55,658 nt of DNA from Elusimicrobiaceae bacterium (GTDB lineage: Bacteria > Elusimicrobiota > Elusimicrobia > Elusimicrobiales > Elusimicrobiaceae), in contig JAQVSV010000006.1 of assembly GCA_028700325.1 (NCBI GenBank), forward strand, positions 1 through 55,658. Direction: 5' to 3'. The translations under genes and the position numbers were made by a program. This document shows, piece by piece, positions 4,245 to 41,134 of the stretch. How positions within the stretch are numbered: position 1 is the stretch's first letter; every line of letters begins with the position of its first letter. The notes beneath the pieces are model-generated. The model worked only from the letters and a program-made list of their open reading frames with translations. It was not told the origin of the DNA and made no database searches.

Positions 4245-5723
4245 CTACCGCCAGCGCACGTCGGGATTGCGGGCCGCGCCCACTTCGTCCAGCCGGTTGA
4301 CCGGCAAACCCTCCGGCGCGTTTTTAACAAGCGCCGGATCCGCCAGCGCTTCCGCGGCGATCGCGCGCATCGCGCCGATAAAAGCGTCGAGCGTTTCCCG
4401 GGTTTCCGTTTCAGTCGGCTCGATCATAAGCGCTTCATGCACTATCAGCGGAAAATATATCGTCGGCGCGTAGAACCCGTAGTCGAGCAGCCGCTTGGCC
4501 ACGTCGAGAGTTTTAATGCCGTTAAGCCGCTCCGGCACCGTGGTCAGCACGCATTCGTGCATGCAGTGCTCGTCGTAAGCGCAGGGAAACAGGTCTTTGA
4601 GCTTCACCCGCACATAGTTGGCGTTGATTATAGAGTTCTCGGCTATCGAGCGCAGCGTGCCGCCGTCATGCATCCGCAGGTAGCAGTAGCCTTTGAGCAC
4701 CACGCCCGTGTTGCCCAGGAAACTGCGCACCCGGCCGATGCTGCCCGGCCGGCCGGTTTTTATTTTATAGGCCCCGTTTTCGCAAACAACACGCGGAACC
4801 GGCAGAAACTTCTCCAGTTCCCTGACCACGCCCACCGGGCCCGAACCGGGCCCGCCGCCGCCGTGCGGCGTGGAAAACGATTTATGCAGGTTCAGATGCA
4901 TGATATCCACGCCGAACTGCGCGGGTTTGGCGATGCCCATTACGGCGTTAAAGTTCGCGCCGTCCATGTAAAACAGCGCGCCCGCGTCGTGCGCCGACCT
5001 CGATATTTCAAGAATTTCGCTTTCAAACAGGCCCACCGTGTTCGGCACAGTCAGCATTACCATCGCGGTCTTCGGGCCAAGCGCGGCTTTCAGCGCGCCC
5101 AGATCAACCCGCCCGTTCGGTTTGGATTTCACCGTCACCACCGAAAATCCGCCCATCGCCGCCGAAGCCGGATTGGTGCCGTGCGAGGAATCGGCCACTA
5201 CGATCTCGGTGCGCGCGCGATCTTTGCGGGAACGGTGATAGGCAGCAGCAACAAGTATCCCGGTGAACTCGCCGTGCGCGCCGGCCGCCGGCGCGAGAGT
5301 GAACGCGCCCAGCCCGGTAATTTCGCACAGCAGCTGTTCCATGCCGTAATAAAACCCGAGCGTGCCCTGCATCGCCGCTTCCGGCGCGTATGGATGGACG
5401 TTGGCAAAACCCGGCAGCGCGGCCATATCCTCGTTGACGCGCGGATTGTATTTCATGGTGCAGGAACCCAGCGGATAAAAATGCGTGTCGAGGCAGTAAT
5501 TCCTGCGCGACAGGCCGGTGTAATGCCGCACCGTCTCAAACTCGCTGAGCTCGGGCAGCCTGGGCGGGGTTTTTCTCAAAAACCGCTCCGGCAGATAGGC
5601 GCCGGCGTGCTTCTCCGGCCTGGGAAACCGGATGCCGCGCCGGCCGGCTGCGCTTCGTTCGATCGAAAGAATCATCGGTTCGGTTTTCAGTTCGGCGGGT
5701 TTGCAGTTCATTGCGGTCGTCAT
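4245..5723 (-). CDS. gcvPB: Glycine dehydrogenase (decarboxylating) subunit 2
   Basis: The 492-residue C-terminal half of the two-subunit P-protein. It decarboxylates glycine with PLP and passes the aminomethyl group to lipoyl-GcvH. The PLP lysine is in 'HLNLHKSFSTPHGGGGPGSG', and 'CLDTHFYPLGSCTMKYNPR' near the N-terminus is diagnostic for this subunit. The ATG at 5723 overlaps the gcvPA stop as ATGA, so the two subunits are translationally coupled. Stop codon is TAG. The split into subunits 1 and 2 is the form usual in anaerobes, Firmicutes and archaea rather than the single long GcvP of enterobacteria. Confidence 0.96.
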   Translation of the reverse strand: MTTAMNCKPAELKTEPMILSIERSAAGRRGIRFPRPEKHAGAYLPERFLRKTPPRLPELSEFETVRHYTGLSRRNYCLDTHFYPLGSCTMKYNPRVNEDMAALPGFANVHPYAPEAAMQGTLGFYYGMEQLLCEITGLGAFTLAPAAGAHGEFTGILVAAAYHRSRKDRARTEIVVADSSHGTNPASAAMGGFSVVTVKSKPNGRVDLGALKAALGPKTAMVMLTVPNTVGLFESEILEISRSAHDAGALFYMDGANFNAVMGIAKPAQFGVDIMHLNLHKSFSTPHGGGGPGSGPVGVVRELEKFLPVPRVVCENGAYKIKTGRPGSIGRVRSFLGNTGVVLKGYCYLRMHDGGTLRSIAENSIINANYVRVKLKDLFPCAYDEHCMHECVLTTVPERLNGIKTLDVAKRLLDYGFYAPTIYFPLIVHEALMIEPTETETRETLDAFIGAMRAIAAEALADPALVKNAPEGLPVNRLDEVGAARNPDVRWR

Positions 5724-7051
5724 TTGGAAAACCTCCCCAGTTCGGCGGCGAACTGCCTCATTTCCTCGTCGGTGCGCTTTTCGGTGGCGCAGACGAGCAG
5801 GCAGTTTTTCATTGACTTGTCAAAATTGCCGAGCGGCACGCCCGCCAGAATGCCTTTTTTAAGCAGCCGGCTGCGCACCTTTTCGGCGGGCACGGGACAC
5901 TCGAGCACGAACTCGTTGAAATACGGCCCGGAATATTTGACGCTGAAGCCCGGCGCGGCGGACAGCAGCGCCGCCAGCCTGTGCGCTTTTTCAACGCACA
6001 GTTCAGCCGCTTCCTTAAGCCCGGCAGGCCCGAGCAGCGCCAGATGGATTGTAGCCGACAGCGCGCACAACGCCTCGTTCGAGCAGATGTTGGAGGCCGC
6101 GCGTTCGCGCCGGATATGCTGTTCCCGGGCCTGCAGGGTAAGCACGAACCCGCGCCGGCCGTTGTGATCCTTTGTCAGGCCGCAGATGCGGCCCGGCATA
6201 TGGCGCATATGCTCTTTTTTGCACGCGAAAATGCCGAGGTAAGGACCGCCGGCCGACATGGGATTGCCCAGGCCCTGCCCTTCCGCGACGGCGATATCCG
6301 CCCCGTAACTGCCGGGCGCGGCCAGCACGCCAAGGCTTACCGGATTGACGGTCGCCACAAGCAGTGCGCCGCAGGAGTGCGCTTTGTCGCTCACGGCCTG
6401 CGCGTCTTCGATAACGCCATAGAAATTGGGCGTGGCAAGCACAACGGCCGCCGTATCGCCGCCCAGCATGGAGTCCAGCGCGGCCATGTCCATCTGCCCG
6501 CCGGCGCAGGGAATATCGGCAAACACCGCCGCGCCTGTCACGCCGAAATAGGTTTTGAGCGTGGCTTTGTACTCCGGATGCAGCGCGCCCGTCAGCAGGA
6601 TTTTCTTCCTGCCGGTTATGCGGACGGCGGCGTTAACCGCTTCCGCCAGCGCGGTCGCGCCCTCATACATGGAAGCGTTCGCCGCGTCCATCTCAAACAG
6701 CGCGCAAATCGAACTCTGAAACTCGTAAATCGCCTGCAGCATGCCCTGGCTGGCTTCGGCCTGATAGGGCGTGTAGGCGGTGAGAAACTCGCCGCGCTGG
6801 ACAATATGGCGGATGGCCGACGGAATGTAATGGTCATACGCGCCCGCGCCGGCGAAACACGCCAGCGGCGTGTTTTTCGCGGAGAGCCGGGTCACATGCT
6901 CCACCAGTTCCTGTTCCGTCAGCGCCGGCGGCAGATTGTAAGCGGGATTGAGCAGCTCCGCCGGCACCTGCGCCGTCAGTTCCTCTACAGAGGAAACGCC
7001 GATGGCCTTGAGCATCTCCTCCCGTTGCTTTGTGGTGTGTGGACTGAACAT
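5720..7051 (-). CDS. gcvPA: Glycine dehydrogenase (decarboxylating) subunit 1
   Basis: The 443-residue N-terminal half of the P-protein, recognised by MFSPHTTKQREEMLKAIGV, 'CFAGAGAYDHYIPSAIRHIV' and 'FLTAYTPYQAEASQGMLQAI'. It partners GcvPB in the glycine cleavage P-protein. The start at 7051 is the family start, preceded by a GGGG ribosome site and 10 bases after the gcvH stop; an in-frame ATG at 7093 would run back into gcvH and is not needed. The stop overlaps the gcvPB start. Confidence 0.95.
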   Translation of the reverse strand: MFSPHTTKQREEMLKAIGVSSVEELTAQVPAELLNPAYNLPPALTEQELVEHVTRLSAKNTPLACFAGAGAYDHYIPSAIRHIVQRGEFLTAYTPYQAEASQGMLQAIYEFQSSICALFEMDAANASMYEGATALAEAVNAAVRITGRKKILLTGALHPEYKATLKTYFGVTGAAVFADIPCAGGQMDMAALDSMLGGDTAAVVLATPNFYGVIEDAQAVSDKAHSCGALLVATVNPVSLGVLAAPGSYGADIAVAEGQGLGNPMSAGGPYLGIFACKKEHMRHMPGRICGLTKDHNGRRGFVLTLQAREQHIRRERAASNICSNEALCALSATIHLALLGPAGLKEAAELCVEKAHRLAALLSAAPGFSVKYSGPYFNEFVLECPVPAEKVRSRLLKKGILAGVPLGNFDKSMKNCLLVCATEKRTDEEMRQFAAELGRFSK

Positions 7052-7061
7052 TTTGCGCCCC

Positions 7062-7442
7062 TTACTTGCCGGCCGATTGCTGGTAAGCCGCAAAATCCAT
7101 CAGCCCGGCCAGTTCCGCCGGCTTGGAAAGTTTCAGCTTGAAGAACCAGCCTTCGCCATGCGGCGCCTTATTAGCAAGCGACGGCTCGTCCACCAGCGCT
7201 TTGTTCACCTCGGTCACGGTGCCGGAAACCGGCGCGTAGAAATCAGACGCCGCTTTGACCGACTCGATTACCGCGCACGCCTTGCCCTGCTCCACCGCCG
7301 CCCCTGCTTTAGGAAGCTCCACAAACACGATGTCGCTTATCTCATGCTGCGCGAAATCGCTGATGCCTACTGTTGCCGTATCGCCTTCAACATGCGCCCA
7401 TTCATGGCTTTTTGCGAATTTGCAATTTTCTGCGTTGAACAT
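7062..7442 (-). CDS. gcvH: Glycine cleavage system H protein
   Basis: A 126-residue lipoyl carrier, the usual length of GcvH. The lipoyl lysine is Lys63 in 'VIESVKAASDFYAPVSG'. The opening 'KFAKSHEWAHVEGDTATVGI' is characteristic. It shuttles the aminomethyl group between P-, T- and L-proteins and is the likely target of the lipoate ligase at 3542-4231. The ATG at 7442 has a strong AAGGAG site (complement of 7449-7454), seven bases upstream. It lies 53 bases after gcvT. Confidence 0.97.
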   Translation of the reverse strand: MFNAENCKFAKSHEWAHVEGDTATVGISDFAQHEISDIVFVELPKAGAAVEQGKACAVIESVKAASDFYAPVSGTVTEVNKALVDEPSLANKAPHGEGWFFKLKLSKPAELAGLMDFAAYQQSAGK

Positions 7443-7495
7443 ATACCGCTCCTTGTAATTAATTGATTTTTTCAGGCCGGCCAAATCCGGCGGAT

Positions 7496-8593
7496 TCAAA
7501 CCTTGTTGTCGTAAAACGGCGTTTTGGCGACTTCCGCCGCCACCCGCGCTCCGTGGATTTCTATTTCCACCTTGTCGCCCGGCTCGAGATTGACCGGAGT
7601 CACATAGCCGACTCCGATCCCGGCGTTGAGGCTGGGCGAGAAAGTCGCGCTGTTAAGCGCCCCGATCCTGACACCGTCTTTATAAACCGCGCAGCCGTGC
7701 CGGGGCACCCCGCGGCCGGTCAGTCTGAAACCGGTGAGCTTTTCGCGCAGGCCGGCATCTTTGCGGCGGAGAACGGCGTCCCTGCCTATAAACTCGCCTT
7801 TCTTGGGTTTGACCACCCAGCCGCAGCCGGCTTCGTAGGAAGTGTGGTCTTCGTCCGCGTCGGAGCCGTAAAGCAGATAGCCGGCCTCCAGCCGCAGCGT
7901 GTCGCGGCTGCCCAGCCCGCACGGAAGCAGGCCGTAAGCGCCGCCGCGCCTGAGCAGTTCGTCAAAGAACGCGTTGATCCCTTTAGGGGAAGCTGCGACC
8001 TCAAAGCCGTCCTCGCCGGTATAACCGGTACGGGTGACGACCGTGTATTCGCCCCCGAATTCGGTTTCCAGTATGCCGAACCGGGGCAGCCTGAGCGCGG
8101 CGGGGAATATTTCGCCGGCCAGCGCGGGCGCTTTCGGACCCTGCACCGCGACCATGCCGAACCGGTCGCTCGCGTTTTCCAGTTTCACATTGAAACCGGC
8201 GGACTGTTTTTCAAACCACGCGAAATCCTTGGCAAGCGTCGCGGCGTTGACCACGATCAGAAACCGCTCCGGCTCGATACAGAATGAGATGGCATCGTCT
8301 ATAATGCCGCCGTTGTCGGCCAGAATATGGGAATAAACGCCTTTGCCCGGCTCGCATTTGATGTTATTGCTGTTAACGTACTGCACAAACCTGTGCGCGT
8401 CCGGCCCGGTTACGAAAACCTGGCCCATATGGGAAACGTCAAACACGCCGCAGGCGTTTCTGACGGCTTTATGTTCGGCTACGATCCCGGAAAACTGCAC
8501 CGGCATTTCCCAGCCGTGAAAATCAACCATGCGTCCGCCGACTTTGACCAAAGCGTCGAAAAGCGGAGTCCTCCTTAATGTTATGCTTGTCAC
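7496..8593 (-). CDS. gcvT: Aminomethyltransferase (glycine cleavage T protein)
   Basis: A 365-residue folate-binding T-protein: 'RRTPLFDALVKVGGRMVDFH' followed by 'GWEMPVQFSGIVAEHKAVR', and 'VFDVSHMGQ' and 'RTGYTGEDGFEV' later. It transfers the methylene group from H-protein to tetrahydrofolate. A GTG start at 8593 (VTSITLRRTPL) is preferred because a perfect AGGAGG lies directly upstream; the longer in-frame version starting at 8617 would cover that ribosome site. First gene of the gcvT-gcvH-gcvPA-gcvPB-lipoate ligase transcript, with a TATAAT box about 45 bases upstream. Confidence 0.95.
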   Translation of the reverse strand: MTSITLRRTPLFDALVKVGGRMVDFHGWEMPVQFSGIVAEHKAVRNACGVFDVSHMGQVFVTGPDAHRFVQYVNSNNIKCEPGKGVYSHILADNGGIIDDAISFCIEPERFLIVVNAATLAKDFAWFEKQSAGFNVKLENASDRFGMVAVQGPKAPALAGEIFPAALRLPRFGILETEFGGEYTVVTRTGYTGEDGFEVAASPKGINAFFDELLRRGGAYGLLPCGLGSRDTLRLEAGYLLYGSDADEDHTSYEAGCGWVVKPKKGEFIGRDAVLRRKDAGLREKLTGFRLTGRGVPRHGCAVYKDGVRIGALNSATFSPSLNAGIGVGYVTPVNLEPGDKVEIEIHGARVAAEVAKTPFYDNKV

Positions 8594-8636
8594 AAAACCT
8601 CCTGGTTTTACTGGCAACTGTCCCGACTATATACAT

Positions 8637-8642
8637 ATTATA
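8637..8642 (-). promoter_or_regulatory. gcvT: -10 box of the gcv operon
   Basis: The minus strand reads TATAAT here, 44 bases before the gcvT start. No convincing -35 hexamer stands at 16-18 bases. The leader between the box and the start is too short for a glycine riboswitch. Confidence 0.5.
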
Positions 8643-8846
8643 TGTTTGAAGCGACATTTTCCAGCGCAAAAAGCAACGCTGTCACGCCGCGCCGGAGTCT
8701 AGCCGGACATGAATCTCCCCCGCCTGTGCCATTGGCCTGCCGGTTGTTATTACGCTTTACCGGCAAGCCGGGGATTTCTTTTGGTCCAGACTTCGTTTGC
8801 CCTGCTTGCGCAGGGTTACGCACTCCATCCCCCCTGCCTGAGCCAT

Positions 8847-8908
8847 GCCGGCAATCATTATGCCGTGCCTGCCAGCGCCGGGTTTTCGTGAGCGGAATTT
8901 ATAAAAAA
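8847..8908 (-). repeat. Dispersed CATAAT-hairpin element, copy A
   Basis: On the minus strand it runs from the T-tract of the lpd terminator through AAATTCCGCTCACGAAAA, then CCGGCGCTGGCAGGC, the loop core CATAATGATT and GCCGGC. It is about 85% identical to copy B (27301-27363) and clearly related to copy C (41027-41094). Here the long stem has mismatches, but a local CGGCA/TGCCG stem closes around the same loop. Confidence 0.65.
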
Positions 8909-8933
8909 CCGCGGCCCGTAAAACGGGCCGCGG
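8903..8933 (-). terminator. Rho-independent terminator after lpd
   Basis: A perfect 10-bp stem (CCGCGGCCCG at 8909-8918 with CGGGCCGCGG at 8924-8933, loop of five) followed on the minus strand by six T residues (8903-8908). It lies 21 bases past the lpd stop. Confidence 0.92.
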
Positions 8934-8954
8934 CGCAAAACGTCAAGCCGGCTA

Positions 8955-10325
8955 TCAGCGGCTGAGCGCTTCTTTGATCGTTTCGGACATAGTAGGATGG
9001 GCAAACATGACCTTTTTCAGCTCGGGCACAGTCAGCCCGGCCCGGATTGCCACGGAAAAAATGTGGATCAGCTCGGTGGCGGTATGGCCGACGATCTGTC
9101 CGCCGAGTATTTTGCCGGTTTTCTCGTCCGAAACAACCTGCACAAACCCGTCCGGCTCATCCTGGCTCAGAGCGCGCCCGGAGCTCAGGAAAAACGCCCG
9201 GCCAACCTTGACTGTATGGCCCTTCTTTTCCGCCCGTTCCCTGTCCAGCCCCACGCAGGCGGCTTCCGGACGCGTATAAATGCAGCCCGGCACCAGTTCG
9301 TTGTCATATTCCTCGCTGTGGCCCAGCGCGTTGCAGGCGGCGATATCGCCCTGATGTTCCGCCGCATGGGCAAGCAGCGCCAGCCCGTTCACATCGCCGA
9401 CGGCGTAAATGTGCGGTTTCACGGTGCGAAGCCGGCTGTCCACCTTAATGCCGCGCCTGTCCCACTCAAGCCCGGCCTTCTCGAGCGCGAGTTCACCCAG
9501 TTCCGCCACCCGTCCGACCGCGACAAGCACCTCATCCGCATGCAACTGCGTGCCGTCCGAAAGGTGCAGGAGTTTCTTCCCGTTTTCCAGGGCAACGGAG
9601 TCGGCGCTCACACCCAGATGCAGATTAATGCCTTTCTTTTTGAATGCCGCCGCCACGGCGCGGCCCACGCCCGGATCCATGCCGGGCAGCACGCCGGGCT
9701 GAAGCTCTACCAGATGAGTCTGCACGCCAAACGAGTGGAACACGCACGAAAATTCCGCTCCGATCGCGCCAGCGCCGATAATCGCAACCGACCCCGGCAG
9801 CTTCTCCAGCCCGAACACGCTGGTGTTATCAAGCAGTTCCGCGCGCAGCGCGTCAAAGGGTTTCGGGAAAAACGGCCGGGTGCCCGCTGCGATGATGGCC
9901 GCGTCGAACGCAACGGTCCGCCGGCCGCCGCCGGTCTCAATTTCGGCTTCCCGGTCCGACAAAAACCGCGCCGTACCCTGCACATAATCAATCCCGAGCG
10001 ACTTGAACAGCCTCATCAGGTTGCCGCGCAGTTTTTCTATAAGAGCCTGCCTGCGCGCCGAAATTTTCGCCCAGCTGAGATGCGCGGCCACATCGGACAG
10101 CGCGGCTTCCGCGCCCGGCTCAAGCAGCGCCGGCAAATCATGCAGCACTTCAAACCGGTGCGCCGCGTCAAGCAGCGATTTCGACGGAATGCAGCCCCAG
10201 TTCAGACAAACCCCGCCGGGATGCGCCTTTTCAACAAGCGTCACCTCCGCGCCAAGCGCCGCCGCCTTTGCCGCCGCGGGGTACCCGCCCGGACCCGCTC
10301 CTATCACAAGAATTTTTTTTGTCAT
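8955..10325 (-). CDS. lpd: Dihydrolipoyl dehydrogenase
   Basis: A 456-residue FAD flavoprotein disulfide reductase. It starts MTKKILVIGAGPGGYPAAAK (FAD-binding GxGxxG), has the redox disulfide in 'GGVCLNWGCIPSKSLLDA', a second Rossmann motif 'SVAIIGAGAIGAEFSCVFHS', and the C-terminal catalytic 'FAHPTMSETIKEAL'. It reoxidises dihydrolipoyl-GcvH with NAD+. The start has a GGGAGC site. It lies directly upstream of the gcv block on the same strand but is separated from it by a strong terminator, so it is probably a separate transcript from the AsmA-like gene side. Confidence 0.95.
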   Translation of the reverse strand: MTKKILVIGAGPGGYPAAAKAAALGAEVTLVEKAHPGGVCLNWGCIPSKSLLDAAHRFEVLHDLPALLEPGAEAALSDVAAHLSWAKISARRQALIEKLRGNLMRLFKSLGIDYVQGTARFLSDREAEIETGGGRRTVAFDAAIIAAGTRPFFPKPFDALRAELLDNTSVFGLEKLPGSVAIIGAGAIGAEFSCVFHSFGVQTHLVELQPGVLPGMDPGVGRAVAAAFKKKGINLHLGVSADSVALENGKKLLHLSDGTQLHADEVLVAVGRVAELGELALEKAGLEWDRRGIKVDSRLRTVKPHIYAVGDVNGLALLAHAAEHQGDIAACNALGHSEEYDNELVPGCIYTRPEAACVGLDRERAEKKGHTVKVGRAFFLSSGRALSQDEPDGFVQVVSDEKTGKILGGQIVGHTATELIHIFSVAIRAGLTVPELKKVMFAHPTMSETIKEALSR

Positions 10326-22827: not shown

Positions 22828-25800
22828 TCAGGCGCGTAACCAGCCGGCCGACGGTGAGGAAAGCTCGGCGGCAAGCTGTCTGGCCCGCGCGATGTCAATC
22901 TTGCCCGACCCCAGAAACGGGAGCTCCGGCACGCTGAAAAAACAGTCCCGCGCGGGAACCCATAAAGGCGGCAGCCCGGAATCTTTCAGCCGGGCATGAA
23001 GCGCGTCCGTATCGCCGATCGCCCTGCACAGCACGGCCAGCTTTTCGCCGCGTTTTTCATCAGGCAGCGAAACCACCACGAACGTGCGCTCGATCACTCC
23101 GGCAAGCTGGTGCAGCTTTTCCTCAATCTTGATATGGGGCACCATTTCGCCGGCTATTTTGGAAAACCGGGACAGCCGGTCGGTAATGGTAACGAATCCG
23201 TCCTCGTCTATCGAGGCGATATCGCCGGTGATATAATACCCGTCGCGCATTACGGCGGACGTTTTTTCCGCGCTGTCCAGATAGCCTTTCATAACGTTGG
23301 GGCCCTTCACCAGCAGCAGGCCCGGCGTGTCGGCCGGCAAAGGCTCGAATGTTTCGGGATTCACCACCTTCATGGCGATACCCGGCAGCGGCGCGCCGAT
23401 GGTGCCCGGCTTGCCGCCGGTCTGGTGCAGGCCGTCCATATCCACGTCGGGAATATTGAGCGAGGCGGCGGGCGACAGCTCGGTGCAGCCGTATCCTTCC
23501 AGCGGCATGATCCCGAATTTATCGCGGAACGACAGCGCTATTTCTTCGCGCAGCTTCTCGGCCCCGGTAACAGCCAGCCGCAGGGTTTTGAAATCCGCCG
23601 TTTCGATTTTGCGGATATACGCCACAAAAAAACCCGGCGTGCCAAGCAGCATTGTCGCGCGGTAGCGGCGGGCGAGCGCGCCGATCGTGCGCGCGTCAAG
23701 CGGGTTGTAGTGGTAAACGACCCCGAACCCGGCAACCAGCGGCAGCCATAAGGTGACGGTATACCCGAACGAATGAAAAAACGGCAGAACACCCACCAGC
23801 CGGTCATGCGGAGTAAGCTGGTAAATCTGGGCCGCCGCTTCAATGTTTGAATGGATATTGGCATGCGACAGCATCACGCCCTTGGGTTCGCCGGTGGAAC
23901 CGCTGGTGAAGATAATCGCGGCGGTAGCGTCAAGCGGCACGTCCGCGCGGGCGAGCAGGGTTTTACGCAGCATGAACATGGGATAGATAAACAGGACAAT
24001 CGCGGAGGCCAGGCCCTCCAGTTTAGAGATTCCCGCCGTCAAATCCTCCAGAAAAACCATGTTTTCCGACACCTGCCAGCCGCGGGCCTGCGCCAGTTTT
24101 TTCGACACGATTATTTTTTCCAGTCCGGCCTGCCGGGCGCAGGCGGCGATATTTTCAAACGGCGTGGTGTAATTAAGATTGACCGGCACCTTGCCCAGCA
24201 GCGAAACCGCTATGTTGACCAGCGCGCCCGCGGCCGACGGCGGCAGCAGAATTCCCACGTTGGACGCGGCCGGAAGTATTTTATCCAGAATTTTCGACAG
24301 CACCACCGCGCGCGTAAGCGCGGACCCCATCTTTATTCTGCGGACTCCGGAATCAGCCATGCAGAACCGGAACCAGTGGCGTTTGGCCTCCTCCGCAAAC
24401 GCCAGCGGCAGCGGCAGTTTAGAGTCAAGCCGGTTCCTGAAGGCTTCCGCGCCCAGTTCCTGCATGGCAAGCCGGATGGTTGAGGAATCGGTATCCGCCG
24501 GCATAGCGCGCCCGAAACTGACAGTCACCGGGTAACCCAGCCGCTTCGGCCACTTGAAAACCGCGCGGCCGCCCTCGAAACTGAACAGTCTTCCCCACAC
24601 CCCGTCAATATGTACCGGCAGGATGGGCGCGTCCAGCCCTTCGGCAATCCGCTCATAGCCTTTTTTGAAACGCAGCAGCTGGCCGTGGCGTGAAATCTCG
24701 CCTTCGATAAAAATGCAGACCGCGTCGCCGTTTGCAAGCGCGTCCTTGGCCATGCGCAGTGACCGCACGATTTCGCGCGGCCCGCTGGAATGCGAAATGG
24801 GAATGCATTTGGCCATCCGGAAAAACCAGTTCAGCACCGGCATGTCATAAAACTTTTTATGCATTATGAAACGGATGGGCCGCTGGCACGCGCCGGTGAG
24901 AAGAAGCGCGTCAACAAAAGAAATATGGTTGGAAACCAGCAGAACAGGCCCGTCCGGCGGAAAATTGCCGCCGCCCTTGGTTTCAATGTGATAGGCGATA
25001 TTGACCACCGGATAAGCGATAAACCGCAGCAGAAACTCCGGCAGCACGGTTATGATATAGGCGGCCACCGCCAGAGTCATCGCGCCCAGCACGATAAACA
25101 CCTGCGCGGGATTAAGCTTGAACCAGCTGTCCGTCGTCCACAGCACGGCGGAAGCGACAATAACGCCCGTAAACGCCATAATGTTTCCGGCGGCTATGAA
25201 TGTGCCGCGCCGGGCCTCGGGGCTGCGGTACTGCACATAGGTTTCCAGCGGCAGTTCAAACAGCCCGCCCGAAAGCCCCAGCAGAAACAGCAATACCCCG
25301 GTCGCGAACACCGAATCAAAACTGAAAGCGAGCGCGGCGGAAAACACCACCAGCCCCAGCGCGCCGACCGGCACCAGCCCCAGCTCCACCCGGTTCCTGG
25401 ACAGCCGGCCCGCCAGCACGCTGCCAACGCCTATGCCGAGCGCGACCATCATCTGAAACACGCTCAGCGCGGCCGCGGTTTCGTGCATCATTTCGCGCCC
25501 GTAAACCAGAATGTTCATCTGGAACATCGCACCCACAAACCAGAAATAAGCGCTGCCCATAAGCGCGAGAAAAATTTTGCGGTGTCCGGAAACTTCCCTG
25601 ATATCGGAGTAAATTCTTCCCGCCACATCCAGCTCGAACCGCTGCGAACCCGCGGCGGCCGGCACCTTGCCCACCAGCAGGCTGGCCGCCAGGCCCAGCC
25701 CGGCGACCGCCAGGAAAAACGGCACCGCCTGATAGAATTTCCCGTGCGTGAACTCCAGCAGCAGGCCAGCCGCAGCCGCGCCGAGAATGATGCCGCCAAA

Positions 25801-26250
25801 CCCGGTCATTGACATAAGCCCGTTGCCGTTTGACAGATCGTTCGACTCCAGCAGTTCCGGCAGGATCGCCAGCTTCACCGGGCTTAACAGCGCGCTGTGA
25901 ACACCCATCAGAAACATCAGCGCCAGCAGCGCCGGCACGCTTTGAAAATACAGCGGCAGAAAACTGACCGCCATCAGGCCCAGTTCCACCGCTTTAAGCG
26001 CGATGATTGTTTTATGCTTGCAGAACCGGTCGGCCAAAGCGCCGGCAAAACTGGAAAACAGTATATAAGGTATTACGAAACAGACACCCGCCAACGCTAT
26101 AACGTGCGCCGTTCGGGCCTGCGGCAGAGTTACCGCCGCCATCAGCATGATGAATGTTTTAAAGGCGTTGTCATTGGCCGTGCCAAGCAGCTGCACGGCC
26201 AGCAGGCTCACAAATCCGGGACTGGCGGTTGAAATTTTAGCGTTCTTCAC
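22828..26250 (-). CDS. MFS transporter / acyltransferase / acyl-ACP synthetase fusion (1140 aa)
   Basis: Three modules in one chain. Residues about 1-410: twelve-segment MFS (LplT-like lysophospholipid flippase; 'LLGTANDNAFKTFIMLM'). About 420-640: PlsC acyltransferase with the NHxxxxD motif 'LLVSNHISFVDALLL' and 'FIEGEISR'. The remainder: AMP-binding acyl-ACP synthetase with 'AAIIFTSGSTGEPKGVMLSH' and 'YITGDIASIDEDGFVTITDR'. Together these bring 2-acyl lysophospholipid inward and re-acylate it, as LplT and Aas do in E. coli. The GTG start at 26250 has AGAGGGG upstream and begins the MFS part directly; the frame stays open far upstream, but that stretch lies opposite the hydrolase gene and has no family features. 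Ends in TGA. Confidence 0.9.
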   Translation of the reverse strand: MKNAKISTASPGFVSLLAVQLLGTANDNAFKTFIMLMAAVTLPQARTAHVIALAGVCFVIPYILFSSFAGALADRFCKHKTIIALKAVELGLMAVSFLPLYFQSVPALLALMFLMGVHSALLSPVKLAILPELLESNDLSNGNGLMSMTGFGGIILGAAAAGLLLEFTHGKFYQAVPFFLAVAGLGLAASLLVGKVPAAAGSQRFELDVAGRIYSDIREVSGHRKIFLALMGSAYFWFVGAMFQMNILVYGREMMHETAAALSVFQMMVALGIGVGSVLAGRLSRNRVELGLVPVGALGLVVFSAALAFSFDSVFATGVLLFLLGLSGGLFELPLETYVQYRSPEARRGTFIAAGNIMAFTGVIVASAVLWTTDSWFKLNPAQVFIVLGAMTLAVAAYIITVLPEFLLRFIAYPVVNIAYHIETKGGGNFPPDGPVLLVSNHISFVDALLLTGACQRPIRFIMHKKFYDMPVLNWFFRMAKCIPISHSSGPREIVRSLRMAKDALANGDAVCIFIEGEISRHGQLLRFKKGYERIAEGLDAPILPVHIDGVWGRLFSFEGGRAVFKWPKRLGYPVTVSFGRAMPADTDSSTIRLAMQELGAEAFRNRLDSKLPLPLAFAEEAKRHWFRFCMADSGVRRIKMGSALTRAVVLSKILDKILPAASNVGILLPPSAAGALVNIAVSLLGKVPVNLNYTTPFENIAACARQAGLEKIIVSKKLAQARGWQVSENMVFLEDLTAGISKLEGLASAIVLFIYPMFMLRKTLLARADVPLDATAAIIFTSGSTGEPKGVMLSHANIHSNIEAAAQIYQLTPHDRLVGVLPFFHSFGYTVTLWLPLVAGFGVVYHYNPLDARTIGALARRYRATMLLGTPGFFVAYIRKIETADFKTLRLAVTGAEKLREEIALSFRDKFGIMPLEGYGCTELSPAASLNIPDVDMDGLHQTGGKPGTIGAPLPGIAMKVVNPETFEPLPADTPGLLLVKGPNVMKGYLDSAEKTSAVMRDGYYITGDIASIDEDGFVTITDRLSRFSKIAGEMVPHIKIEEKLHQLAGVIERTFVVVSLPDEKRGEKLAVLCRAIGDTDALHARLKDSGLPPLWVPARDCFFSVPELPFLGSGKIDIARARQLAAELSSPSAGWLRA

Positions 26251-26325
26251 TTGCCCCTCTGTTGAAATACTGTAAAAGTATAACAAAAACCCGGCATGCG
26301 TTGTATCGCCCGGCCGGAAAAACAC

Positions 26326-26331
26326 TATAAT
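26326..26331 (+). promoter_or_regulatory. -10 box of an apparent leaderless promoter
   Basis: TATAAT, then six bases, then the ATG of the hydrolase gene at 26338. TTGTAT at 26301-26306 could act as -35, at a wide 19-base spacing. The transcript would start at or within a base of the A of ATG. Confidence 0.6.
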
Positions 26332-26337
26332 ATCGGT

Positions 26338-27105
26338 ATGAAAAAGAAACTCATTGCCGCAGCCGCGCTGTGCTGCGCGCTCGCTTGCACAATCGTGCCC
26401 GCGCATGCGGGCACAAAGATAAAACGCGCGGCGACCGGCAACACCGCAAAGACCGTTGCACTCGACGAAACCGGCGCGGCGGCCGGCACGCTGACGGACA
26501 AAACCGAATATATCCTCTATATTCCGGCGGGCCTGAAACCCGGGACAAGGCATCCCCTCGTCGTCGCGCTTTCGCCCGGCGGCGAGCCGTATTCCATGCT
26601 TAACGCCTGGCGTTCGGCGGCCGACCGGCATAAATGGCTGGTATTCGCGTCGAAAGTGTTTAGCAACGGCGGCGACGCGGACAAAAAACTTGCCGCCGTT
26701 TCCAGCGCGCTGTATAACGAGATCTGCCTGCGGCCGGACACAGACTGCACAAAAACGATCGTCACCGGCATGTCCGGCGGCGCGATGGGCTCTTACATAC
26801 TCGCCATGATGGAGCCGGGCATGATAGCCGCCGTTGTCGCCAACACCGGCATGATGCACGAAAACGAGAAACGGGCGAATTATCCGCGCGGCAAGGCGGC
26901 GGTGTTTCTCGCCAGCCCAGCGGACTTCCGCTATGACGCGATGAAACAGGACCGCGGATTTCTTGAAGAAAGAGGCTGGAAAACCGAATGGCTGGAATTT
27001 GCCGGCGGGCACACCATCGCACCCGCCGGCATCTATGAGCGGGCCGCGCAATGGGTGCAAACCAACGTATTCAGCACACCGCAGCCGCCGCAAGAGAACC
27101 GGTAA
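26338..27105 (+). CDS. Secreted alpha/beta-hydrolase (255 aa)
   Basis: A signal peptide (MKKKLIAAAALCCALACTIV, cut near AHA-G at about residue 24) followed by an esterase/PHB-depolymerase-like hydrolase: 'YILYIPAGLKPGTRHPLVVA', the nucleophile elbow 'TGMSGGAMGSYILAMM' (GxSxG), and a C-terminal His in 'FAGGHTIAPAGIYERAAQW'. Likely an ester hydrolase in the periplasm or outside; substrate unknown. The Cys in the signal region is not in a clear lipobox. The ATG at 26338 gives a clean signal peptide and matches the -10 box six bases upstream; no ribosome site is present. Confidence 0.75.
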   Translation: MKKKLIAAAALCCALACTIVPAHAGTKIKRAATGNTAKTVALDETGAAAGTLTDKTEYILYIPAGLKPGTRHPLVVALSPGGEPYSMLNAWRSAADRHKWLVFASKVFSNGGDADKKLAAVSSALYNEICLRPDTDCTKTIVTGMSGGAMGSYILAMMEPGMIAAVVANTGMMHENEKRANYPRGKAAVFLASPADFRYDAMKQDRGFLEERGWKTEWLEFAGGHTIAPAGIYERAAQWVQTNVFSTPQPPQENR

Positions 27106-27410
27106 AACCCGATCAGGCTGTATCCGCGGCTTTTGCGCCGCGCAGTCGGCGTGTGCCGGCTGACGCGCCGGCGCCAAGTCCGCCGGAGATGAGGACACGC
27201 GGCTTTCCGCGCACGGATCCGGTTTTCAATGTTGAACGTGCCTGCCACCCGCTTTCCTGAAAGCCGCAAACAGGCGCAAAAATCCGCACGAAATGTACCG
27301 GGCCGGCAATCATTATGTCGTGCCGGCCGGCGCCGGATTTTTGTAAGCGGAATTTATTAAAAACGGGCGCCGGTTACCCGTCACCCGACCCGGTCTGGCA
27401 CAAATCCATT
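27106..27410. other. 305-bp gap between hydrolase and radical SAM gene (convergent)
   Basis: Contains copy B of the dispersed CATAAT-hairpin element (27301-27363) and a weak minus-strand stem CGGG/CCCG (27364-27381) followed by TTTTTAATAAATT that may end the radical SAM transcript. The remaining 190 bases hold no gene that I can support. Confidence 0.55.
27301..27363 (-). repeat. Dispersed CATAAT-hairpin element, copy B
   Basis: Minus strand: TTTTTAATAAATTCCGCTTA, then CAAAAATCCGGCGCC, GGCCGGC, ACGACATAATGATT, GCCGGCC. Stem GGCCGGC/GCCGGCC is seven perfect pairs. Nearly identical to copy A over 60 bases although the two lie 18 kb apart. Confidence 0.7.
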
Positions 27411-40988: not shown

Positions 40989-41026
40989 AAGCATCGCTCC
41001 TGTGTTTATGAAACTCCCGCCGCTCG

Positions 41027-41094
41027 GGCCGGGCAGGCTCTTATTATGGCCTGCCGGCCAAAACCGGGGTTTTGCGAACGCAATTTCAATGAAA
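41027..41094 (-). repeat. Dispersed CATAAT-hairpin element, copy C
   Basis: Minus strand: TTTCATTGAAATTGCGTTCG, then CAAAACCCCGGTTTTGG, CCGGCAGGC, loop CATAATAAGA, GCCTGCCCGGCC. The stem GGCAGGC/GCCTGCC is perfect and differs from copy B by paired changes on both arms. It follows directly after the tdh terminator, as copies A and B follow terminators or ends of their minus-strand genes. Confidence 0.6.
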
Positions 41095-41122
41095 CGGCGG
41101 CGCGCAAAAACACGCGCCGCCG
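41095..41122 (-). terminator. Terminator after tdh
   Basis: 10-bp perfect stem (CGGCGGCGCG / CGCGCCGCCG) with an eight-base loop, followed on the minus strand by TTTCATT, 12 bases past the tdh stop. Confidence 0.8.
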
Positions 41123-41134
41123 CGGCAATTCAAA

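Follow-up and report, generated by a model that had tools for sequence, protein, structure and literature searches.

A small hairpin with a constant loop, repeated directly behind unrelated genes, may be a regulatory RNA or the trace of a mobile element. This question is raised by the sequence at positions 8847-8908 of the window, by which we mean the whole stretch of 55,658 nucleotides analysed here (contig JAQVSV010000006.1 of an Elusimicrobiaceae bacterium). An initial annotation, made from the sequence alone, described three copies of an element of about 65 bases with a variable stem and a CATAAT loop, suggested either a 3´-end RNA element selected for its fold or a REP/MITE-like repeat, and proposed a genome-wide covariance-model search. 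We consider it highly probable that the repeat is a non-autonomous family of the IS200/IS605 superfamily, of the PATE/MITE type, that arose by internal deletion from the lineage's own IS200-like element, which carries tnpA only. The pattern can be explained without invoking a host function.

Copies and anatomy of the repeat

The three copies, at 8847-8908, ~27301 and ~41027, are indeed related and all on the minus strand, and each begins at the T-tract end of the terminator of a minus-strand gene, as described. A pattern search of the genome revealed many more, and their alignment extended the repeat well beyond the 62 bases first noticed, which make up just its left end. The 2.2 Mb genome (128 contigs) holds approximately 50 copies, far more than chance would give. 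With a 201-nt query that joins TTTAT to 196 bases of element, genome-wide blastn returned 40 at E<=0.001 and 48 with relaxed scoring. A left-end covariance model matched 57 sites at E<=0.01, and about 50 of these passed E<=1e-7. In its complete form the repeat spans ~196 bp and folds into a hairpin near either end. Its left boundary lies between TTTAT and AAATTCCGCTCACAAAAACCCGG, and its right boundary follows CCGGGGGAGTTTCAT; similarity between copies ends at both. These boundaries are sharp and common to dozens of copies, directly after TTTAT on the left and directly after TTTCAT on the right. Terminal inverted repeats are absent, the tips being unlike (AAATTCCGC vs AGTTTCAT), and the hairpins are subterminal at both ends.

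Copy A is a complete non-autonomous element of 192 bp (8709-8900, minus strand; left end at 8900, right end at 8709) with 93.6% identity over the full query. The CATAAT loop module of its left-end hairpin (8850-8869, minus strand) belongs to the hairpin seen initially; the length of about 65 bases missed a second hairpin at the right end (8716-8774, minus strand), whose loop holds a homologous CGTAAT module and after which comes the right tip GAGATTCAT. Upstream lie the hairpin and T-tract of the lpd terminator (8901-8935, minus strand; CGCCGCGGCCCGTTTTACGGGCCGCGGTTTTTTAT), with the TTTAT target (8901-8905) at their end. Copy A separates lpd from gcvT in a run of glycine cleavage genes ordered lpd, gcvT, gcvH, gcvPA, gcvPB (4245-10325, minus strand), where Rfam finds no glycine riboswitch; riboswitches before gcvT or the nucleobase permease gene mentioned below were rejected for want of any Rfam match.

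Copy B (27302-27355, minus strand; 91.5% identity to query positions 1-59) is a left end with its hairpin only, and no right end is found downstream of it. Directly ahead of it, the radical SAM gene has a terminator-like hairpin with a T-tract (27356-27392, minus strand), of which the final TTAAT is the target of this copy. A reading of CATAAT as part of a sigma-70 or sigma-54 promoter was dismissed, as the spacing is unfit and the genes on either side of copy B converge. The neighbouring very long open frame (22828-27198, minus strand) is an apparent Aas-like fusion of MFS transporter, acyltransferase and AMP-dependent ligase, judged by eye from the translation. Copy C, identified by the covariance model (E 6e-10) and by sequence, is a 79-bp mini copy (41008-41086, minus strand) consisting of the left tip, one hairpin (41027-41059) and the right tip AGTTTCAT. 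It follows the tdh terminator hairpin (41087-41125, minus strand), and its target has drifted to CATTG. It is a single divergent copy with the stem in a different register. Its right tip is ~14 bases from the start of a nucleobase permease frame (40994) and thus within the 5´ region of that gene.

In this genome, the loop of the left hairpin is enlarged by an extra module of ~40 nt containing the CATAAT hairpin. A homologous CGTAAT module occurs in the majority of complete right ends, the short form being kept in a few. Alignment of the left with the right module scores 15.5, compared with 3.8 +/- 1.7 for shuffles. The CATAAT core is, as was claimed from three copies, near-constant (90% or more over 44 copies), and conservation within the element is highest in the right-end module (94.6%). 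In relatives, the end hairpins are short, with a GTAA or GTGA loop and neither module. Among 90 genomes of Elusimicrobiaceae, only this one matches the left-end model more than marginally; the exact core of the left-end module has zero matches in public genome and viral contigs, and plasmids gave no match. The module is not an independent mobile repeat, as all 37 CATAAT and all 24 CGTAAT pattern matches fall inside element copies, including the internally deleted copy C74 described below.

Transposase remnants, relatives and the terminator target

The Y1 (IS200-like) transposase family has one match in the genome, directly inside a left end of the repeat. This copy, C68, consists of the left end and the 5´ part of tnpA; DNA from other insertion sequences stands in place of the 3´ part. 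The tnpA remnant has DHVY as its HUH motif, scores 69.8 bits on the NCBIfam IS200/IS605 model (cut-off 55) and resembles TnpA of ISHp608. Another copy, C74, combines the left end, the start of tnpA, the end of tnpA with an RKYIDMQ region, and the right end in one internally deleted unit. A relative has an intact tnpA (DHIH, KYIDMQ) between matching ends, also behind a terminator. Because remnants lie between the same ends in C68 and C74, and an intact tnpA has matching ends in a relative, the repeat is best understood as an internally deleted, non-autonomous IS200-type element, and its hairpins are accounted for as IS200-type end hairpins. These sequences form a series of steps, from an intact IS200 element in relatives to an internally deleted copy and on to mini copies of ~200 bp and ~80 bp. 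The DNA that interrupts tnpA in C68 (L031, ~1800 to 2284) resembles two more insertion sequences, with the beginnings of a zinc-ribbon transposase and of an IS3-like orfA, and reaches the contig end.

Named records place the close relatives in Elusimicrobiaceae or uncultured Elusimicrobia. In one assembly the 3´ end of tnpA occurs on ten contigs, and the six inspected share the same right end with differing flanks, as expected for a multi-copy element. The right-end motif is present in 26 of the 90 family genomes (reversed control, 0). A different short element in relatives (L144, L148, L151 and L157) has the same right end after a common upstream sequence containing GCGGGCAAAATCAAGCGAAGCTGAGATTTTGGA, and is apparently a second non-autonomous family with the same ends. 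Similar tnpA elements with GTAA-loop end hairpins are found in Uhrbacteria, Parcubacteria and Paracaedibacteraceae (L161, L164 and L165; 62-67% protein identity), which suggests cross-phylum transfer or assembly mixing. No active transposase was found in the present assembly; since the only tnpA found is broken, the family is probably immobile now, and the mobility that we infer belongs to its past.

TTAT directly precedes the left end in 29 of 44 copies, with near variants in most others, and no repeat of the target after the right end was seen in the copy listing. A terminator-like hairpin immediately precedes the left end in 35/44 copies. By comparison, 132 of 1166 other TTTAT sites follow such a hairpin, as do 26/222 (12%) intergenic TTTAT sites (odds ratio 29, P 4e-19); these backgrounds were computed on 454 kb of the 2.2 Mb genome, with intergenic regions defined by a simple codon-usage gene finder made for this analysis rather than by curated annotation. 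In relatives, single-hairpin or mini copies and autonomous copies are likewise located behind terminators.

By analogy with IS608, a Y1/HUH transposase supplied in trans would bind the left-end and right-end hairpins on single-stranded DNA, the element would be excised as a single-stranded circle, and it would be rejoined 3´ of a new TTTAT, with the T-tracts of intrinsic terminators as putative favoured targets. In IS608, a guide tetranucleotide on the 5´ side of either hairpin selects the cleavage site by pairing with it, the pairs being CL TTAC with GL AAAG and CR TCAA with GR GAAT (PMC5934647). In our repeat, TTAT stands with AAAA and TCAT with GAAA; by our own reading of the two IS608 pairs, the one-base difference between the two cleavage sites is mirrored at the expected guide base, and in relatives the left-end sequences TAAA and AGAA agree less closely with this rule. 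The guides AAAA and GAAA may pair with the cleavage sites TTAT (left) and TCAT (right).

The terminator association may reflect either true targeting or the survival of harmless insertions. One possibility, which we hold only tentatively and at somewhat less than even chances, is that the Elusimicrobiaceae IS200 lineage has evolved true targeting of intrinsic terminators, recognizing hairpin and T-tract beyond the TTTAT word, together with a coordinated rebuilding of both end hairpins with the same loop module in this species. True targeting would make insertions nearly harmless, and landing right behind gene terminators points to a strategy of safe sites in a single-strand transposon. A literature search found no report of IS200/IS605 insertion at terminators, which does not prove that there is none, and the association is strong enough for a bench test.

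Alternative explanations

The genome-wide analysis bears out the abundance of the repeat and its position, with about 50 copies and 35 of 44 behind terminator hairpins, but not the covariation of its stems. In the 7-bp stem, both sides of a pair are changed in 1 of 284 cells over the 44 copies, compared with 1.1 in shuffles; the paired changes reported between copies of the window are therefore not general, and the stem of copy C is in a different register. An alternative 5-bp register has 3 double changes in 203 cells, and 4 of 500 shuffles are as high, too few for a claim. Family-wide selection on an RNA fold is not supported by covariation. A cis-acting 3´-end RNA element under such selection, serving in processing, stability or backup termination, would agree with the position behind gene terminators, with a consensus fold more stable than shuffles (z -4.1 as RNA) and with the high conservation of the right-end module. 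We nevertheless regard it as very unlikely: the copies are variously truncated and absent from relatives, there is no Rfam match, the elements contain transposase remnants and transposon-like ends, recognition by a transposase accounts for the hairpins without RNA, and the choice of TTTAT at terminators as target explains the position at gene ends. In genomes of this kind, a conserved hairpin downstream of a gene is not necessarily a regulatory RNA.

The suggestion of a REP/MITE-like repeat fared better, in that the element is mobile, non-autonomous and palindromic; it is not a REP. If a domesticated REP-associated tyrosine transposase (RAYT) had spread a REP/BIME family, the result would likewise be a dispersed, extragenic, palindromic repeat in a genome with a Y1 transposase relative. 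This origin is highly improbable here, as the remnant matches the IS200/IS605 model and not REP_Tyr (its relative scores 21.9 on the latter, cut-off 80), the hairpin is preceded by AAAACCC and not GTAG, and the transposase lies between the ends in the manner of an insertion sequence, in a complete unit of ~196 bp with unlike ends. Group IIC introns insert just behind intrinsic terminators, and the repeat sits at exactly such places. A fragment of a group IIC intron or other retroelement has, however, a negligible probability, because Rfam has no match in the window, which includes a complete copy, and the coding remnant inside the element comes from a Y1 transposase and not from a reverse transcriptase, so that tnpA in C74 and C68 refutes this origin.

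Relation to known systems

Like the IS200 group of the IS200/IS605 superfamily (reference IS608, Helicobacter pylori), the non-autonomous IS200-type element has remnants of a Y1 transposase between its ends, no inverted repeats, and subterminal hairpins preceded by guide-like tetranucleotides, and it is inserted 3´ of a short, AT-rich target. It differs in that most copies are without a transposase, the target is TTTAT and mostly at terminators, and the hairpin loops are enlarged by the CATAAT/CGTAAT module, which is unusual for IS200 ends in general. REP sequences with TnpA-REP (RAYT) (PMC8266576) share dispersed extragenic palindromes and single-strand processing by a Y1 enzyme, whereas our repeat lacks GTAG before the hairpin and has an IS200-type transposase located inside the unit. 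In Borrelia lipoprotein genes, free-standing IS605 stem loops are solo IS605-type end hairpins at gene 3´ ends (PMC2775950), as here; their author argues for later conservation as RNA, of which the stem in our family has no sign.

A further close parallel is provided by the palindrome-associated transposable elements (PATEs) of Haloquadratum walsbyi (PMC3119063). In the part of their description drawn on here, PATEs are too short for a transposase, have near-terminal palindromes without inverted repeats, and derive from IS605-type elements by deletion of the core, with terminal-only mini copies as well; other small repeats also insert into their palindromes. The present repeat has the features that mark a PATE, being short, without transposase, and with near-terminal palindromes that are related to the ones in an IS605-type element. 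Sequence and host are different, and a terminator preference does not figure in that part of the description. We thus add the family as a new member to the PATE kind of IS200/IS605 derivatives; its strong preference for terminators is the interesting part.
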